Origin: a virus
Strand: one strand, 5' to 3'
Virus record (IMG/VR): IMGVR_UViG_3300035184_001642
Coordinates: 1 to 23,008 of that record
DNA length: 23,008 nucleotides
In this document: in pieces, positions 619 to 18,665 of the stretch
How positions within the stretch are numbered: the stretch's first letter is position 1
How the letters are laid out: each line of letters starts with the position of its first letter
Position numbers and translations under genes: made by a program
The notes under the pieces: model-generated
Database searches by the model: none
Seen by the model: the letters and a program-made list of their open reading frames with translations, nothing else
Told to the model about the DNA's origin: nothing

Positions 619-754
619 CTCTAATAGGGGGAGTAAAACATAATTCCAAAGAACACAATCGACGGATTGCTTTGGTTGGGACCTGATGCTGCAAGCGCGC
701 TAAAAGGTGAAGCCCCCTTAAAATACTATATAGAATTAACTCTAAATTAAAATC
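619..754 (+). ncRNA. Candidate structured RNA or leader upstream of a terminator
   Basis: This gap is richer in G+C than its surroundings and contains nested complementarity. AGGGGG (626-631) pairs with CCCCCT (713-718), closing a domain. Inside it, CCAAAG (646-651) pairs with CTTTGG (670-675), and stacked within that CAATC (656-660) pairs with GATTG (665-669) around a GACG loop. ACCT (681-684) can pair with AGGT (705-708). The block runs into the terminator at 755-786. The 11-mer ATTAACTCTAA occurs at 614-624 and again at 735-745. A 36-codon frame without ATG (640-750) also reads through it. It resembles no RNA family I can name; a folded RNA is an inference from these pairings. Confidence 0.4.
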
Positions 755-786
755 GGGGGGATAGCGAAAGTTATCCCCCCCTTTTT
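755..786 (+). terminator. Strong intrinsic terminator with GNRA tetraloop
   Basis: An 11-bp stem (GGGGGGATAGC with GTTATCCCCCC, one G-U pair) is closed by a GAAA tetraloop and followed by C and TTTTT (782-786). This is a textbook Rho-independent terminator for + strand transcription. It separates the unit containing the gene at 436 from the genes starting at 988. Its G-run can alternatively pair with CCCCC at 713-717. Confidence 0.9.
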
Positions 787-4220: not shown

Positions 4221-5453
4221 ATGGTAAAAACACCTACAGGGTTAGCCTCACTTAACCCCACAACACCAGCATCATCTCAAAGAGCAAATATCTTCTCAGC
4301 AAGAGTTAGATTTGCTATGGTTGATGATAAAGAACAACCCCAAGCATTTAAAGATTTTGGGGAATGGAGTTCTATTGGGTGTGTTTTCTTTGATAGGTTA
4401 AATCAACCCAACCCAAACCCCCAATTCGTATCAGATAATTTTGCCCGTCCTCTATTCCCTAATAACTCTAATATTCCTTTAAAAAACGAATTAGTTTATA
4501 TTATGGCTATGCCTAACAGCAATGTCCAATCTGATGTTAATGCTATTGTATATTATTATTTCCAAGCTATTAATATTTGGAATAGCACCCACCACAATGC
4601 AATACCCGACCCGATCAATGGATCTTCAACTCCAGAATCCCAAACACAAGACTATGAACAAACCTCTGCAGGTTCTGTAAGAAGAGTTACAGATGGGGGT
4701 ACTGAAATTGATTTAGGTAAAGATTTTCAAGAAAAATTAAGCATAAGAAACTTACAACCATACTCCGGAGATTTAATATATCAGGGTAGATGGGGTCAAT
4801 CTCTTAGATTTAGCTCAACTTTAAATCAAGCCCAAATTCCAAATCCCTGGTCTGAATCAGGAGAAGATGGGGATCCTATTACTATTTTAAAAAATGGTCA
4901 ACATGAGGAAAGTACAGATCCATGGATTCCCCAAGTAGAAGATATTAATACAGATGCCTCTAGCATTTATTTAACATCAACACAAAAAATCCCAATTACA
5001 GTATCAAGTAAAGATTATAAATCATACTCATCTGCCCCGGATTCTCCAAATACATTTATAGGAGAACAAATTATTTTAAATTCTGGGCGTTTATTATTTA
5101 ATTCAAAAACAGATTCTATTTTATTATCATCCGCTGATACTATTAATTTAAATGCTGTAAATAGTTTGAATGTAGATGCACCTAAATCAATATTTAATTC
5201 AAAGGAAATATATTTAGGAGATAAAAATGCAACTGAGCCTGTAATATTAGGGAATAAATTTTTAGGAGATTTACAGAAACTTTTATTATCTTTAATAAAA
5301 TTATCTTCTGCTTTAGCTACTCCTATTGGTACACCTATTCCCTTTGTACCAAATGCAGCAATACCAGGACCAGCTACAGACACCCAGATAAAAGCACAAA
5401 ATATGCTTAATAAGATTCAACAGTATAAATCTAAAGTAAGTAAAACTAAATAA
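4221..5453 (+). CDS. gp5-like: Baseplate hub / tail-spike protein, gp5-like OB-fold, no lysozyme domain
   Basis: The N-terminal part (about residues 25-130) has the beta-rich pattern of the gp5/VgrG OB-fold region, including FGEWSSIGCVFFDRL and LKNELVYIMAMPN, then FQAINIWNSTHHNAIPDP. A middle part carries GRWGQSLRFSSTL (about 189-201), GDPITILKNGQ and INTDASSIYLTSTQKIPI. The C-terminal third has short alternating strands (GRLLFNSKTDSILLSSADTI), consistent with the triple beta-helix needle of gp5/VgrG trimers, then a helical tail. At 410 residues it is shorter than T4 gp5 (575), and no lysozyme-like segment separates OB-fold and needle. It should form the central membrane-piercing spike. GGAG lies 7 nt before the ATG, but it falls inside the previous gene's last codons. 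Confidence 0.7.
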   Translation: MVKTPTGLASLNPTTPASSQRANIFSARVRFAMVDDKEQPQAFKDFGEWSSIGCVFFDRLNQPNPNPQFVSDNFARPLFPNNSNIPLKNELVYIMAMPNSNVQSDVNAIVYYYFQAINIWNSTHHNAIPDPINGSSTPESQTQDYEQTSAGSVRRVTDGGTEIDLGKDFQEKLSIRNLQPYSGDLIYQGRWGQSLRFSSTLNQAQIPNPWSESGEDGDPITILKNGQHEESTDPWIPQVEDINTDASSIYLTSTQKIPITVSSKDYKSYSSAPDSPNTFIGEQIILNSGRLLFNSKTDSILLSSADTINLNAVNSLNVDAPKSIFNSKEIYLGDKNATEPVILGNKFLGDLQKLLLSLIKLSSALATPIGTPIPFVPNAAIPGPATDTQIKAQNMLNKIQQYKSKVSKTK

Positions 5454-10961: not shown

Positions 10962-13900
10962 ATGGAAATAACAAATACTACATCAAGTTTAAATGCTAGA
11001 TCTTCAGTTAACCCATCAAACTTAAGTGCTAAGTCTTCGGTTAACCAATCAGGTTTAACTGCTGCCGACTTATCATTTACAACCAAACCATCTGTTACCC
11101 CAACACCAGTTGTACCTAAAAATATAGATTTTACTATACCAGTAAGTGCCTCTATTACATATGTTGATCCTAGTACTTTATCTAGTGATGGTTTTGAATT
11201 ACAAGACCAAGCTATTATTCCAAATACATTCTTAACCTCATCATTTACCCCAGGAGATAATTTTGTTGAGCTTTATGTTTACGATGCTCAAAAGAATTTA
11301 TTAACTTCTAATTATAATTGGGAAGATTGGACAATAGTAGAAAATTCAAATACCGAAATACCATCGGGGTCTTACGTTGATATAACTACAGGTTTAAATG
11401 TTGCTGAAGTAGCTCCAACTACTTTACCAACTAATGAATTAGTCTTAGACCCATCATCTAATGTTTATAATCAAGGATTTGAAAATGGTGTTTTATATGC
11501 ATCTTATAATTTTGTAAAATATGAGTTAGGTTCATCCCCTCAGGATACTTTTTACTTATCAGAAATTTCTTCAGACAGAACTGAAATTGCTATTAAATCT
11601 AATACTATTGATAAAAATGATATTAAAAGAGGATATATATCTTTAACAAATTCCCTTAGAGGATTTGCTTATTTTGATGAGTTTTATGTAAGTTTCTTTA
11701 ATAATGAGTATGCTATTAGTATTAATGTTCTGACAACGGGTTCAATAAAATCCCCTACAGATACTATTTTAATTAAACTATATGAACCTTTACCTACTCA
11801 ATATAATGTAAAGGATGAATTATATGTAGCTTCAAAGGTAGGAGAAAGTAAAGCCTATAAGGTTGAATTTATTGAAGATCTTAGTTCATTTATTGAACAG
11901 GCCAATTTTATTAAAGGTCCAAACATTAATATATCTTTAAAAGATTTAGTAAATAATTCAACAACGTTAAAATCCTATGAGGATTTAACTACAACTCCAT
12001 CATCAGAATCTTTAAATAATTTATTAAACACACTTAATAAAACCGGTGTAACTATTACACCTAACTATTCATATAATACCTTTAATGAGTTTATAAATTT
12101 CTCTTCTGCAAAGGAAAGAATAAATAATTTTTATGAAAAGGTATCTCAAATACAATCTTACGAGGCGGATATTGAAACTATAACTAAGATTACAGGTTCT
12201 AATCCTAACGTTGTACCTATTTCATCCAGTTTAGCTAGTTTACAAACTAATATTAGTAATCTAATTACAAATTTTGATGGGTATGAAAGCTATTTATATA
12301 ATAATTCATCATCATTTGCTTATCCTAAATCAGGCTCAGTTTACCCTTACCCCTTACTATCAACGGGTAGTGTTGAAGTATTAGAGTGGTTAGGTAGTGA
12401 TGTTGAAAACTCACAATATTATGGAGGTTATGTGTTATCTGCTTCTGTACATGATCAAAATAACCAAAATTGGTTATATTACACGATTCCATCATTTATA
12501 ACTGAAAATTCGAACAATGATGAATATGTTGAATTTTCTAATATGGTGGGTCAATCTTTTGATGAGATTTGGCTTTATACAAGAGCTTTAAGTGAAAGGT
12601 ATAATACAACAAATGATCCAGATAGGGGTTTACCTCTAGGCTTAGCTGCAGAAGCAATTAAAGGTTTAGGATTTGAAACATTTGGTAACAACTATAATAA
12701 TCAGAATAACTTTATAGGTTTAACGGGTGAAAATAATGGTAGCTATGTCCCCCCTACAGGAAGTGAATTAATAACTCAATATATAGCGATAAATGGTGGA
12801 AGCGTATATAATTACTGGAGTGATAATTATGCTTGGATTGATTATGTTGAACAAGTAAATGACCCAGGCTTCCCGTATGCTATTGATAAAGTAAGTAAAG
12901 AAATATTTAAACGTCTCTACCACAACATGGCTTACCTTACTAAAAAGAAGGGTACAATTAGTGGCTTAAGACAACTTATTAATATTTGGGGTATACCAAA
13001 TACTATCCTTCGTATAAATGAATTTGGGGGTAAGAATAGAGATAATAGTAATGATTATGATTTATGGTACAATAGATTTAGTTATGCTTATACTCCTATA
13101 GCAAACACATATGCAGCAAGTTCATCTGTTAGAATCCCTTGGATGCCTTTAGAGCGTAACAGGATTGCAGATAGTGAATATATAGTTCCTGATGGTTTAG
13201 CCTTTAGGTTTAAAACAACAGGTTTCCCATCATCTAGTTTTGGTGGTTCTTATTATACACAATCCTTAGTAGCTAAAAAATCTAACGGAGTAGCTGACTC
13301 AGAAATGGATTTTGGTATTAGTTTATTCTATGAAGACCAGCCATCAGGATCGTACTCAGGTTCAAGTAATAGTGATTACTATGAATATGGGAAAATGAGA
13401 TTTTATATTTCAGCATCATCCGCTCAAGGGGGTGTTTTAGAATCTGATGATATTTTCTTACCATTCTTTAATAAAGGGTGGTGGAGTGTTTCATTTCAAA
13501 GAGATACTCATGTTTCAGCCTCAATTAATATAAAAGATACAAAATACACATTACAAGTAGCTAATAACCTATATAATGGAGCAGATGGTAATATTATAGG
13601 TTGGACAGGATCTGTTGATAGTGATGTAACAAGTGCTCAATCATCAGTTAATGAAGCTTGGAATAGTTTTGGTGTATCTGAAATAGATGGTATATATCTT
13701 GGGGGTTATGTTTCTGGTTCTAATGTGGTAGCCGAGGTATTAAATGAAAATGGTAAAATATTTTCAGGTTCACTTCAAGAATTTAGATATTATTCTAATG
13801 ATATCCCTACAGAGGTATTCCATGATTTTGTAATGAACCCTGAATCTATTGAAGGTAATAACATTACAGGATCAGAAAGCTCATTTGACATAGTAAACTT

Positions 13901-16900
13901 TAGAGCACCTTTAGGAAATGAATTAGAATACCTATACACAGCTTCACAGTATGGAGATTATATAGAACCTATTTTATCATCACACCCTGCAATTACAGGA
14001 TCAGCCAATTTAGTAATTACAGCCTCATTTGTTAATCCAGCAAATAACGAAGTTACTTCCAGTTATGACTTTATTCATTACTCAAGTTCAGTATTAAGAA
14101 CATATAGCAAACCAAACACAGAAGTATATCAATTAGATCAACCTGCAGTTGGGATTAGAAACAGAGTTTCAAATAAAATCCAAGTTGAAGATGGTGATGC
14201 TTATGGTAATGTTTTATCGAGACAAGTTAGTATAGATCAAAATTACTTAATAAGTCAAAGCTATACAGAAGATGTTACAAATTTAGAAGTAGCATTTTCA
14301 CCTCAAGATGAAGTAAATGATGATATTATTGCTTCTTTTGGGTATGGTGTCATTTCTGATACAATAGCAGATCCAAGATATGCATACGATTCAAAATTAA
14401 ATTACTACCCTAGATTAAGAAATGTAGCAATTGACTACTTTAAAAAATATACAGAAGGTAATGTTTACGATTATTTAAGATTAATTAAATATTTCGACAA
14501 TTCATTATTTAAAGCAATTAAATCGTATGTACCTGCGCGTACAAGCGTGACTACAGGCGTTTTAATTAAACAAAATCTATTAGAGCGTAACCGTCGCCCA
14601 TCTGTAACAGTTAATCCAAATACAACGGTAGCTCGTACTCCGGAAACCGGGTCTTATGATGGTATTCCTACAGGACAGGAAGGTTTAAACAGTGCAATTC
14701 AACTTAGAGACTTAGAACTTACAGGAAGTTTTGATGTAGCTTCCATAGATGGGGGTGCAGGGGGTGTTCCAAACCCTTTTAATGAATACACACAAAGCCT
14801 TTTATATTCAGAAGTAACCCAATCTTGGATTGTAGAAAATAATACAGTCTCAGGTAGTGTTTTTGAAGTACACAATTCTCAAGATGAATTTTACAATGGG
14901 GAATATAGTGGAAGTAATTTAACAGTAACAACACAATCCCTATTAGATAACCCATACACATCCTTACAGTTAAGAGATACACAGTATTATATTTCAGCAT
15001 CTTCAGGTATTGTATACCCAATTGCATCCGCCCCCTTCTTCGGTTATCCACAAAAACTTACAGAAATTGGTGATTTTTCAGCCTTAACAACCCCAAACAT
15101 GATTGTAAAGGTATTTACAGATGTAGATGTTGCATGGAGTTGGATTAATAGTTTTTTTCTCCAATCTTACGCAGATTACATTGGGAAGAATTTTCTAGTT
15201 TTATTCGAAAGTGTATCTATTCCTGATAAGTATTTTATTCTAGCGGCGTTTATTAACAGATTTGACGAAGATGAAAATGATTATATAAGTACAGTACTTC
15301 CCGGAGTTGGTGTTAATGACAATATTAAATTTTCAGGTGGCGCAGCAGTAAAAGAACAGCAAAGATTAACTCTTAATGATCCTTTTGATGCCCCTTATTT
15401 TAATGATTATATTGATAATAGTTTTACCTCATCTTTAAATGACATCGGGGTTAACACTTTATCACCTATCTTCCAATTTGCAATAACCGGAAGTTCAGAT
15501 GGTTCTACCTTAGATCCAGGAAATGAAACAATATTTAAAACATATTTTGGAACCGGTGGTTCAGCAATAAAATCAAATCATATCCATTCTACATTATTCC
15601 CTGCAGATGCTTCAAATATAGGTTATTATGTAGTGGGGGGTAATGTAGACGGTACTCTTTTTAGACCTAGAGGATTATTAATAGCACCCCCTGATGCTAA
15701 TTCATCAATGGGTAAATATAATGTCCCTGGAATTAGCTCTTCACCTTTCTATTTAACTATAGAAACGCAAAACGGTGGTACTATATTGGATAGTGAAAAT
15801 TTGAATGTAACCCAAAGTGCCCGAACTTATGTAAGTAATTACCACGTTTCACTTTCACAAGCAATTTCTATAGTTGCTGGTAAAAATGCAACATCGTTTT
15901 TATTTGGTCCTTCATCTGGAAGTTTCTTCCAATACCGTCAAGTCTTTTTAGGATCAACAGATGGGACAAGATGTATACCTGATTCGTATACTTATACTCC
16001 ATTAGCATTAGCATTAAATAAGTTTAGTATAGATCCTACTACAGACCAAATATACGATAATACAGCAACTTTCTTAGCTAATCCTACTTTTCAATTTAAA
16101 TTAGACGCTTCACTTCAAGTTGGATCAACACCAATTATAAATAGCCTTTCAGGATCAGAATTCTATCAAGGATTAACGGATAAAATAGGTCCTTTACTAA
16201 CAGTAGACTCCCCAAATTCAAATAATCTTTATTGGTATTATAATACTGGTAGTAGAACAATAAGAGGGAATGATTATAATGGTTCATCCACTAACACTTG
16301 GATTCCAGTTAAGTCCCAACCAGCTCAGTTATTTAACTTTAACCCTAGTCTTGTTGGTAACCCATTAATTTTTGATAACTCACCTTTTAATACACTATTT
16401 AATAATGCTACTGGGAGTGAAAAAAATACATATGTTCAAGAATTAGATTATGGGAATGGTATTGAAACCCCTGTAAATCTTCAAGCTATAATAGATAATA
16501 CAGCTGCAAAAGCACAAGTGAATGATAGTTTTTACACATCACTATCAAATATTATCCCAAGATATTTAGGAACAAAAATAACATCAGCTGATTACAATTT
16601 CCCAACACCAGTACCTTCAGGGAGTTTTCCACAAGGTATTACAAGTGTTGCTTTAGAGCGTGATTTATTTAGAGAAAATAAAATCAGATTTAAAACGGGG
16701 GAAACTGGCAGTTGGGCAGGAGATAATTCTTATGGTCAAACAGCAGTTATAGAGTCTAATCCAATTTACTTTGCTCACTTTAAATCATCCCGTGAAAGTC
16801 GAGAAGTATTTAACACAACTACTTTTGACATAGACCAACTTATTCAAGTACCTATGAATGCTATTAAGGGTTCATCTAATTTAAGAATCTCATCATCAAG

Positions 16901-18665
16901 GGTAAATGGAAATAATGATAATTTAATTCCAGTATCTTCAACATTCACCCCAGGGAGAAATGCTTCGGTTATTTACAATAACGCCTATAGAAATTTCTCA
17001 TCTGTATCATCATCATTAAAATTAGAATATACTTCTTTAACTGTAGGTTCTGTAAAAATATTAGCGGGTGGTCAAGAATTTTCAGCATATTTTTCAAATC
17101 AATTATTACCCCAATTAAATTCAGTAACTCAATCCTTCAACAAACCTGATTTCTTATTTACTGGTGGGGGTGGGAATAATGCATTGGTAGTTGGAAAAGG
17201 TCTTTTAGGAGGTACTGTAGGAGGTAGCCCACAATATTTAAATTTACCTTCTAGTTTATCACAAAGTACGGCATTCACACAACTGTTTGTAACCCAATCA
17301 GCAGTAGCGATGGCTTTTACAGCAAGTTCAAATTATTCTACTAATAGAGGTTTTGGTCTTTTACAATTACAAGGACCACCAGCAGAAATTGAATTCCCAC
17401 TTCTACTTTCATCATATCAACCAGCAGCAAGTAATCTCTTTAAAATAGTAGGCCCTACCATAAGCACATTAAATAGTATCAATACTATACTCAGTATGGG
17501 TGTTTTAAATTCATCTAGTGTTTATGATGGTCCTAACCCAACATCCACTATAACTTTAGTAACCCAAAACTATAATTCTAGTAATGATATTGGTTCTTAT
17601 TGGGGCTGTTCATCAGTATTCTCAAGTCTTTTAGCTAATATAAACATAGCGGGTAGTACAACAGGGGCTGGGAGGTATGCATTTCCTATAATAAGTGATA
17701 TTAATGATCCTAATAATTATTATACTTATAATTTTAGCGAGTCAAGACTTGGAGTGTATCCACAACCAGTAGATACAAAACTTTTAATTGAAAAGGGAGA
17801 TGAAATCAGAATATCTTATATTTCCCCTACGGTACTTGCTACATCAACAGATGACCCCCCAGTAGCAACACAAGACTTTACGGTTATAGATTACGAATTA
17901 CCACCACCACTATTAATAAGTGATGCAGTTGAATTTTCTGGAGGTGGAGTTAATCTAACATTCTCTGGATTAGCTACATCACCTTCTTTCCAAGGACAAG
18001 GATCCACAATAAATCCTTACAGTGTAGATGAAGTTTTTAGAAGATTTCAACAAGCACAGGAAAATGGAACAATATTCTTTGCAGCTAATAGTAATAATAG
18101 AGATGATACAACTATAGGTTATGGACCAGTTGCCTCCATTTCTAAAACATCAACTTCAGTAACTGTAGCGTGTTTAGGTAGTAGTTGGTCTTATCCAACA
18201 ACTCCAGCTTCTTCTAAGTGGTTGTTTGGAACTAACAGCGAAATTATTAGAACAGGAATTATTCCGAATACTTTTGAAGGTATATGGAGATATGGTCCTA
18301 TTCTATCAAATACCGCGGCCTCTAACCCATATAGCAATCCTTTTGATCCTGCATTTGTATATGATAGAATTATAGTAAATCCAGACCCAGCAACATTAGC
18401 TCTTCAAATACCTAAAGGTAGCATTTATAATATGACTATAAGAAAAAGAGTAAGTACAGATGATAGAGTAGTATTAAATCAAATATCTCCATCAGGATCT
18501 AAAGGTTCAATAACTCCATCAGGAGATGGTTACATTATCCCTAATGATTTATCAGCAGTACAAAGAAGAAATGTAAATGAATTAATCATTAAATTAAAAT
18601 CTAATAATGCCTTTAACCAGGACACTACATCTGAAGTATCAAATTGGGATGAATTAGATGATTAA
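10962..18665 (+). CDS. gp7-like: Giant gp7-like baseplate wedge / tail protein with lectin-like domain (2567 aa)
   Basis: This gene fills a third of the window. Its order is: an 11-residue repeat (10-31); a beta-rich region with YLSEISSDRTEIAIKSN and DTILIKLYEPLP (about 180-280); helices; then a hallmark segment, IFKRLYHNMAYLTKKKGTIS, followed by GLRQLINIWGIPNTILRI (about 645-690), which is typical of wedge and P2 gpI-like tail proteins. A concanavalin/LamG-like sandwich interrupts it (about 745-945). Next comes FDNSLFKAIKSYVPARTSV with GVLIKQNLLERNRRP (about 1180-1215), also typical of these wedge proteins. The last 1300 residues are Ser/Asn/Gly-rich, beta-predicted and unrecognised. T4 gp7 has 1032 residues, so this is far larger and may combine wedge and fibre or receptor-contact functions. 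It has no frameshift. Confidence 0.7.
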   Translation: MEITNTTSSLNARSSVNPSNLSAKSSVNQSGLTAADLSFTTKPSVTPTPVVPKNIDFTIPVSASITYVDPSTLSSDGFELQDQAIIPNTFLTSSFTPGDNFVELYVYDAQKNLLTSNYNWEDWTIVENSNTEIPSGSYVDITTGLNVAEVAPTTLPTNELVLDPSSNVYNQGFENGVLYASYNFVKYELGSSPQDTFYLSEISSDRTEIAIKSNTIDKNDIKRGYISLTNSLRGFAYFDEFYVSFFNNEYAISINVLTTGSIKSPTDTILIKLYEPLPTQYNVKDELYVASKVGESKAYKVEFIEDLSSFIEQANFIKGPNINISLKDLVNNSTTLKSYEDLTTTPSSESLNNLLNTLNKTGVTITPNYSYNTFNEFINFSSAKERINNFYEKVSQIQSYEADIETITKITGSNPNVVPISSSLASLQTNISNLITNFDGYESYLYNNSSSFAYPKSGSVYPYPLLSTGSVEVLEWLGSDVENSQYYGGYVLSASVHDQNNQNWLYYTIPSFITENSNNDEYVEFSNMVGQSFDEIWLYTRALSERYNTTNDPDRGLPLGLAAEAIKGLGFETFGNNYNNQNNFIGLTGENNGSYVPPTGSELITQYIAINGGSVYNYWSDNYAWIDYVEQVNDPGFPYAIDKVSKEIFKRLYHNMAYLTKKKGTISGLRQLINIWGIPNTILRINEFGGKNRDNSNDYDLWYNRFSYAYTPIANTYAASSSVRIPWMPLERNRIADSEYIVPDGLAFRFKTTGFPSSSFGGSYYTQSLVAKKSNGVADSEMDFGISLFYEDQPSGSYSGSSNSDYYEYGKMRFYISASSAQGGVLESDDIFLPFFNKGWWSVSFQRDTHVSASINIKDTKYTLQVANNLYNGADGNIIGWTGSVDSDVTSAQSSVNEAWNSFGVSEIDGIYLGGYVSGSNVVAEVLNENGKIFSGSLQEFRYYSNDIPTEVFHDFVMNPESIEGNNITGSESSFDIVNFRAPLGNELEYLYTASQYGDYIEPILSSHPAITGSANLVITASFVNPANNEVTSSYDFIHYSSSVLRTYSKPNTEVYQLDQPAVGIRNRVSNKIQVEDGDAYGNVLSRQVSIDQNYLISQSYTEDVTNLEVAFSPQDEVNDDIIASFGYGVISDTIADPRYAYDSKLNYYPRLRNVAIDYFKKYTEGNVYDYLRLIKYFDNSLFKAIKSYVPARTSVTTGVLIKQNLLERNRRPSVTVNPNTTVARTPETGSYDGIPTGQEGLNSAIQLRDLELTGSFDVASIDGGAGGVPNPFNEYTQSLLYSEVTQSWIVENNTVSGSVFEVHNSQDEFYNGEYSGSNLTVTTQSLLDNPYTSLQLRDTQYYISASSGIVYPIASAPFFGYPQKLTEIGDFSALTTPNMIVKVFTDVDVAWSWINSFFLQSYADYIGKNFLVLFESVSIPDKYFILAAFINRFDEDENDYISTVLPGVGVNDNIKFSGGAAVKEQQRLTLNDPFDAPYFNDYIDNSFTSSLNDIGVNTLSPIFQFAITGSSDGSTLDPGNETIFKTYFGTGGSAIKSNHIHSTLFPADASNIGYYVVGGNVDGTLFRPRGLLIAPPDANSSMGKYNVPGISSSPFYLTIETQNGGTILDSENLNVTQSARTYVSNYHVSLSQAISIVAGKNATSFLFGPSSGSFFQYRQVFLGSTDGTRCIPDSYTYTPLALALNKFSIDPTTDQIYDNTATFLANPTFQFKLDASLQVGSTPIINSLSGSEFYQGLTDKIGPLLTVDSPNSNNLYWYYNTGSRTIRGNDYNGSSTNTWIPVKSQPAQLFNFNPSLVGNPLIFDNSPFNTLFNNATGSEKNTYVQELDYGNGIETPVNLQAIIDNTAAKAQVNDSFYTSLSNIIPRYLGTKITSADYNFPTPVPSGSFPQGITSVALERDLFRENKIRFKTGETGSWAGDNSYGQTAVIESNPIYFAHFKSSRESREVFNTTTFDIDQLIQVPMNAIKGSSNLRISSSRVNGNNDNLIPVSSTFTPGRNASVIYNNAYRNFSSVSSSLKLEYTSLTVGSVKILAGGQEFSAYFSNQLLPQLNSVTQSFNKPDFLFTGGGGNNALVVGKGLLGGTVGGSPQYLNLPSSLSQSTAFTQLFVTQSAVAMAFTASSNYSTNRGFGLLQLQGPPAEIEFPLLLSSYQPAASNLFKIVGPTISTLNSINTILSMGVLNSSSVYDGPNPTSTITLVTQNYNSSNDIGSYWGCSSVFSSLLANINIAGSTTGAGRYAFPIISDINDPNNYYTYNFSESRLGVYPQPVDTKLLIEKGDEIRISYISPTVLATSTDDPPVATQDFTVIDYELPPPLLISDAVEFSGGGVNLTFSGLATSPSFQGQGSTINPYSVDEVFRRFQQAQENGTIFFAANSNNRDDTTIGYGPVASISKTSTSVTVACLGSSWSYPTTPASSKWLFGTNSEIIRTGIIPNTFEGIWRYGPILSNTAASNPYSNPFDPAFVYDRIIVNPDPATLALQIPKGSIYNMTIRKRVSTDDRVVLNQISPSGSKGSITPSGDGYIIPNDLSAVQRRNVNELIIKLKSNNAFNQDTTSEVSNWDELDD
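10989..11054 (+). repeat. Two tandem 33-bp units at the start of the giant gene
   Basis: Units 10989-11021 and 11022-11054 match at 25 of 33 positions by my reading and encode the related 11-residue segments LNARSSVNPSN and LSAKSSVNQSG. A third partial copy (LTA) follows. The protein extends in frame from this repeat. It is probably a flexible N-terminal tether produced by duplication. Confidence 0.7.

Follow-up and report, generated by a model that had tools for sequence, protein, structure and literature searches.

A family of small structured RNAs in phage tRNA arrays, supported by covariation and bearing a candidate kissing loop

Why phages keep non-coding RNAs among their tRNA genes, as with RNA C and RNA D of T4, GOLLD and ROOL, is a long-standing open question. 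Loop-loop contacts are known from other viral RNAs: in the HIV-1 DIS, a 9-nt loop exposes the hexamer GCGCGC between flanking purines, and the pRNA of phage phi29, a small RNA built on a multi-way junction, joins its copies by loop-loop pairing. GOLLD and ROOL are phage-borne, lie in or near tRNA arrays, have no coding capacity and are of unknown function, all of which also applies to the element described here. They reach several hundred nt, with an ornate structure and many contacts, whereas our element measures about 95–110 nt and has one possible self-contact. Palindromic loops have been interpreted as symmetric homodimeric kissing loops in OLE (L9.3) and GOLLD (L21a), and the central dinucleotide of L21a swaps from GC to CG (PMC12286853). 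In T4, the small stable RNAs C and D (species 1 and 2; 139 and 119 nt) are encoded within the tRNA cluster, a few bases from a tRNA-Arg gene (AF158101), a position similar to that of our element. The GOLLD and ROOL models, which are contained in Rfam, matched the element neither in sequence nor in structure. Covariance model (CM) R2, run with filters off on the T4 tRNA region, gave scattered matches of at most 8.1 bits, and no member was found with the covariance model in the whole T4 record, in phage immuto or in one large uncultured phage record. As the tested features match none of T4 RNA C/D, GOLLD and ROOL, we class the element as a new family; it works like these tRNA-island RNAs by position and possibly, as regards GOLLD and ROOL, by oligomerisation.

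The element was found in a 23-kb viral record (hereafter the window), in the gap that follows a gene encoding a 60-aa protein (436–618, + strand; supported by tblastn and neighbourhoods). An initial annotation had seen there a small structured phage RNA. It had correctly described the gap as richer in G+C than its flanks, the values being 46% in 623–722 and 27–29% in the flanking genes, and all four pairings that it listed are present. The conserved unit runs from P1 to P1, at about 623–722 on the + strand like all its parts, and scored 106.7 bits with model R1 and 105.1 bits with R2. Its core is a three-way junction of P1 (6 bp), P2 and P3, where P2 consists of two stacked stretches, P2a (6 bp) and beyond it P2b (5 bp, GAYG loop). 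In the window, P1 is formed by AGGGGG (626–631) and CCCCCT (713–718), and P2a by CCAAAG (646–651) and CTTTGG (670–675), with an AU pair where most members show UA. P2b is the hairpin CAATC-GACG-GATTG (656–669, pairing 656–660 with 665–669), whose GAYG loop is almost invariant across members. P3 (681–708) is closed by ACCT (681–684) and AGGT (705–708) and carries in its loop the self-complementary octamer AGCGCGCT (694–701, core hexamer 695–700), a candidate contact for a kissing-loop dimer.

The single-stranded joints are highly conserved in alignments A2–A3: J1/2 (632–645) has the form AGnnAAACRUAAnn, reading ACAUAA and one base shorter in the window, J2/3 (676–680) reads UNGGG and J3/1 (709–712) is an invariant GAAG. 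A pairing of ACG in the P2 loop with CGU of J1/2 was considered and rejected, as it is lost when J1/2 becomes CAU or GGU (A3). A compact multi-way junction with joints of this kind (AGnnAAACRUAA, UNGGG, GAAG) could belong to a novel class of self-cleaving ribozyme whose role would be to trim the array. We regard this as quite unlikely: no Rfam ribozyme matched even at permissive thresholds, the flanks vary among members and no fixed sequence outside P1 could serve as a cleavage site. In our preferred reading, that of a stable RNA acting in trans, AGnnAAACRUAA and GAAG together with the GAYG loop would form a candidate binding surface for a protein, the ribosome or a small molecule.

Folding energy was a poor guide to this structure. 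The fold of the whole 619–786 stretch is strongly stable (z −3.9) because of the terminator that ends it, which alone gave z −5.1. The energy check suggested by the initial annotation, in which the terminator is excluded, went against the RNA: z was −1.41 and 19 of 200 shuffles were equally stable. By energy alone, several members were no better than shuffles, and from the unremarkable value in the window we conclude that energy by itself is insufficient to establish the RNA.

Covariation in homologous gaps, another check suggested there, gave a clear result. In alignment A4 (50 distinct homologues), 97.6% of the cells were paired over 21 base pairs, and double compensatory changes were observed in 13 of these pairs, including five of the six in P1 and four of the five in P2b. 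The base stem of P3 occurs as ACCU/AGGU, ACUC/GAGU and ACCA/UGGU, and two of its pairs have 20 and 23 cells with double changes. The covariation score of A4 was 0.324, against 0.152 ± 0.008 for shuffled alignments, a test inflated by the kinship of the sequences; when the pairings were slid by 1–3 columns, which preserves relatedness, the score was still far lower (≤0.134). A4 was fitted to the structure of the covariance model. In A2, a 22-sequence MAFFT seed made without structure fitting, 98.5% of the cells were paired and 10 pairs were doubly changed, and RNAalifold recovered the same helices unprompted. These comparative data, and not the folding energy, argue that the gap holds a genuine and previously uncatalogued folded RNA family. 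The same stretch contains a frame running from 640 to 747–750 and reading IIPKNTIDGLLWLGPDAASALKGEAPLKYYIELTLN, with 36 open codons and a protein-like composition, as a short unannotated gene would have. This frame has no ATG, GTG or TTG start, indels and stops break it in the homologues, and the base changes in the helices are compensatory, so that we give a coding function virtually no credence.

Members were gathered by IMG/VR pattern scans, in three of which the palindrome was absent from the query, and with covariance models R1 and R2. They total 56, of which 50 are distinct, and fall into 18 clusters at 90% identity. When related phages were collected via a neighbouring gene, the gap after the 60-aa gene was conserved in 11 of the 80 loci, with 73–91% DNA identity. 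Strong matches came from 17 records, among them contigs of 168, 171 and 175 kb, and every one of these contains exactly one copy of the RNA. The initial annotation could assign the element to no known RNA class, and our searches agree with this. Rfam 15 gave no match to it at the gathering score; at E values up to 5, the three members searched returned tRNAs and sub-threshold matches over tRNA. Neither ARAGORN nor the Rfam tRNA model called the element as a tRNA or tmRNA in any member. BLASTN against 50,697 named phage records produced chance matches only and an exact 18-mer search found nothing. In GTDB genomes, none of nine pattern matches was confirmed by the covariance model, and none was found by this model in 295 sampled Bacteroidia genomes, a weak negative as this search had no positive control. 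A match in Microcystis phage Mel-JY01 (15.5 bits) was discarded as a G-run artefact with neither the conserved parts nor tRNAs, as were two weak matches that were AT-rich or marginal (L073 and L007) and the chance pattern matches L158–L161, which had no covariance-model support. By its baseplate wedge protein, the nearest named relative of the window is Flavobacterium phage immuto (44.5% identity), and the host phylum is therefore probably Bacteroidota.

Apart from the window's own copy, every member (55 of 55) has a tRNA gene as its immediate or near-immediate neighbour. It lies downstream in 53 members, as tRNA-Arg(UCU) in 29, tRNA-Leu(UAA) in 22, and tRNA-Gly and tRNA-Met in one each; in the remaining two, no downstream tRNA was detected and the RNA starts 3 nt after a tRNA-Met. 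Mostly 5–9 nt separate P1 from the next tRNA, and the gap between the previous tRNA and P1 is 2–5 nt in most members located within arrays. Where the RNA precedes tRNA-Leu, its immediate upstream neighbour is a homologue of the 60-aa gene. Around the element, Rfam recognises tRNAs only. Such tight and fairly regular distances to tRNA ends, and a unit neatly closed by P1, are what would be expected of a spacer acting in cis, which would aid or time the processing of tRNA-Leu or tRNA-Arg, or protect the precursor, and have no role once removed. Yet the neighbours vary (Leu, Arg, Gly, Met, and twice none detected downstream), many tRNAs of the same arrays have no such spacer, each record has a single copy, and the element persists in the window without any tRNA. 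The conserved joints and the loop palindrome are also more than a spacer needs. We thus judge a cis-acting spacer unlikely, if less so than a ribozyme. Since the neighbouring tRNA varies, the RNA behaves as an independent unit, in keeping with the trans-acting RNA that we favour.

Several of these arrays show further features. In L007, L011, L032 and L041, tRNA-Leu comes straight after the homologue of the 60-aa gene and the RNA is missing; these loci are natural empty sites for a comparison of gain and loss. A second small conserved element lies between the RNA and tRNA-Arg in L088 (1558–1620) and L098 (5218–5281): it has the form GCCGGG...CCCGGC with an inner GUUACC/GGUAAC stem, differs at several bases between the two loci and matched neither Rfam nor tRNA. 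In L113 (3467–3592, − strand) and L130 (about 4924–5060, + strand), the same place is occupied by a folded insert of 126 nt closed by GGAAGAGGC/GCCUCUUCC (z −2.9 for the L113 fold), possibly another uncatalogued tRNA-array RNA. In L096, where the RNA follows tRNA-Met, a further folded stretch without a tRNA call comes after it (1552–1630).

The window is the exception. No tRNA gene was found in it, and the RNA is followed, in their place, by an intrinsic terminator with 11 pairs, a 4-base loop and a T run (755–780, + strand). The initial annotation had located this strong terminator correctly and had taken it as the end of a unit of about 165 nt; this extent does not hold, as the conserved RNA measures about 95–100 nt and the homologues continue into tRNA genes, not into a terminator. 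The AT-rich spacer and terminator (723–786) lie outside the conserved unit, and the terminator-bounded unit of 165 nt is a peculiarity of the window, where the tRNA array is absent. The terminator also brought up the idea of a regulatory leader or riboswitch that would control the downstream gene through 755–780. However, homologues have tRNA genes after the RNA, with neither a terminator nor a reading frame, and the absence of anything coding there disfavours a leader. In addition, the RNA and the terminator form no alternative pairs in the predicted fold, and in L074 a similar terminator stands behind the same 60-aa gene, the RNA being absent. We therefore consider such a control very unlikely, more so than a ribozyme.

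The simplest account of the window would be that its lineage lost the tRNA array and kept the RNA. The copy retains all helices and the palindrome despite the absence of tRNAs; it shows small deletions relative to its relatives and could be eroding. The spacer at 723–754 holds GAATTAACTCTAAATT, a near copy of the GATTAACTCTAAT that closely follows the 60-aa gene, along with TACTATATAGAATT, which faintly resembles the start of tRNA-Leu; from its sequence, this spacer is a possible scar of the lost array.

P3 occurs in three types. In type 1, AGCGCGCU lies in a large loop; type 2 (L082, L083, L112, L119, L124 and L129) shows AGCCGGCU or AGCUGGCU; and in type 3, seen in eight members, P3 is reduced to the short hairpin ACCUUCA-GCGCGCA-UGAAGGU, with a stem of 6–7 bp and a loop [A]GCGCGCA[U] in which the palindrome is the main part to survive. 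A GCU:AGC hairpin within the P3 loop was rejected, being feasible in type 1 and impossible in types 2 and 3. A strictly self-complementary hexamer is found in 47 of the 50 distinct members (GCGCGC in 42, GCCGGC in 5), and GCUGGC and GCGCGU, in one member each (L129 and L141), self-pair with G.U. In L162 the palindrome is absent and the loop has UAAUUA, which is not significant in an AT-rich loop. No 4-nt complement of the palindrome was found elsewhere within the RNA, the sole report, in L113, being a misplaced motif match, and the palindrome thus has no partner in cis. From GCGCGC to GCCGGC, both central bases change together, in one lineage; as neighbouring bases of one strand are unable to pair with each other, this change is read as a sign of intermolecular pairing. 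For the two perfect octamers, the duplex energy is about −14 to −15 kcal/mol. The swap probably goes back to one evolutionary event, and for this reason we put dimerisation through the P3 loop, which is predicted from the sequences, at about an even chance. Type 3 members carry A-GCGCGC-AU on a short stem and resemble in this the HIV-1 DIS, an analogy of mechanism without shared descent. The resemblance to phi29 pRNA is more distant: the latter pairs through two distinct complementary loops and works in a phi29-type motor, whereas our element has a single self-complementary loop and occurs in large phages whose baseplate genes are T4-like.

The reading that we favour, and hold to be rather probable, is that of a new family of small stable phage non-coding RNAs, units inside tRNA arrays that are freed from tRNA precursors and act in trans as dimers joined via P3. 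The carriers are probably large tailed phages of Bacteroidota. The RNA would be co-transcribed with the neighbouring tRNAs and released when tRNA-processing enzymes cut the adjacent tRNA ends, judging from the spacing only; the released stable RNA would then act in trans during infection. Two copies may join via the palindromic loop (GCGCGC or GCCGGC), as in the HIV-1 dimer initiation loop and as envisaged for GOLLD and OLE. That the self-complementary kissing loop builds an RNA-only dimer or larger assembly, delivered by the tRNA-processing pathway and in principle a smaller counterpart of GOLLD and ROOL, is a more tentative proposal, to which we give somewhat less than an even chance. A small, covariation-supported family that predicts dimerisation via one hexamer would be much simpler to work with as a model than the large nanocage RNAs, and the family shows that the tRNA arrays of uncultured marine phages harbour uncatalogued structured RNAs.

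Two other features of the window were recorded. Upstream of the 60-aa gene, positions 402–416 read GTTTCGTATATTACA, with the related TTCGTATATTG at 1741; the long form of this motif, a possible phage promoter motif, is not over-represented within the window. In the baseplate and tail region, an open frame of 2567 aa extends from 10962 to 18665, and the corresponding place in immuto is occupied by a shorter gene of 3.8 kb.
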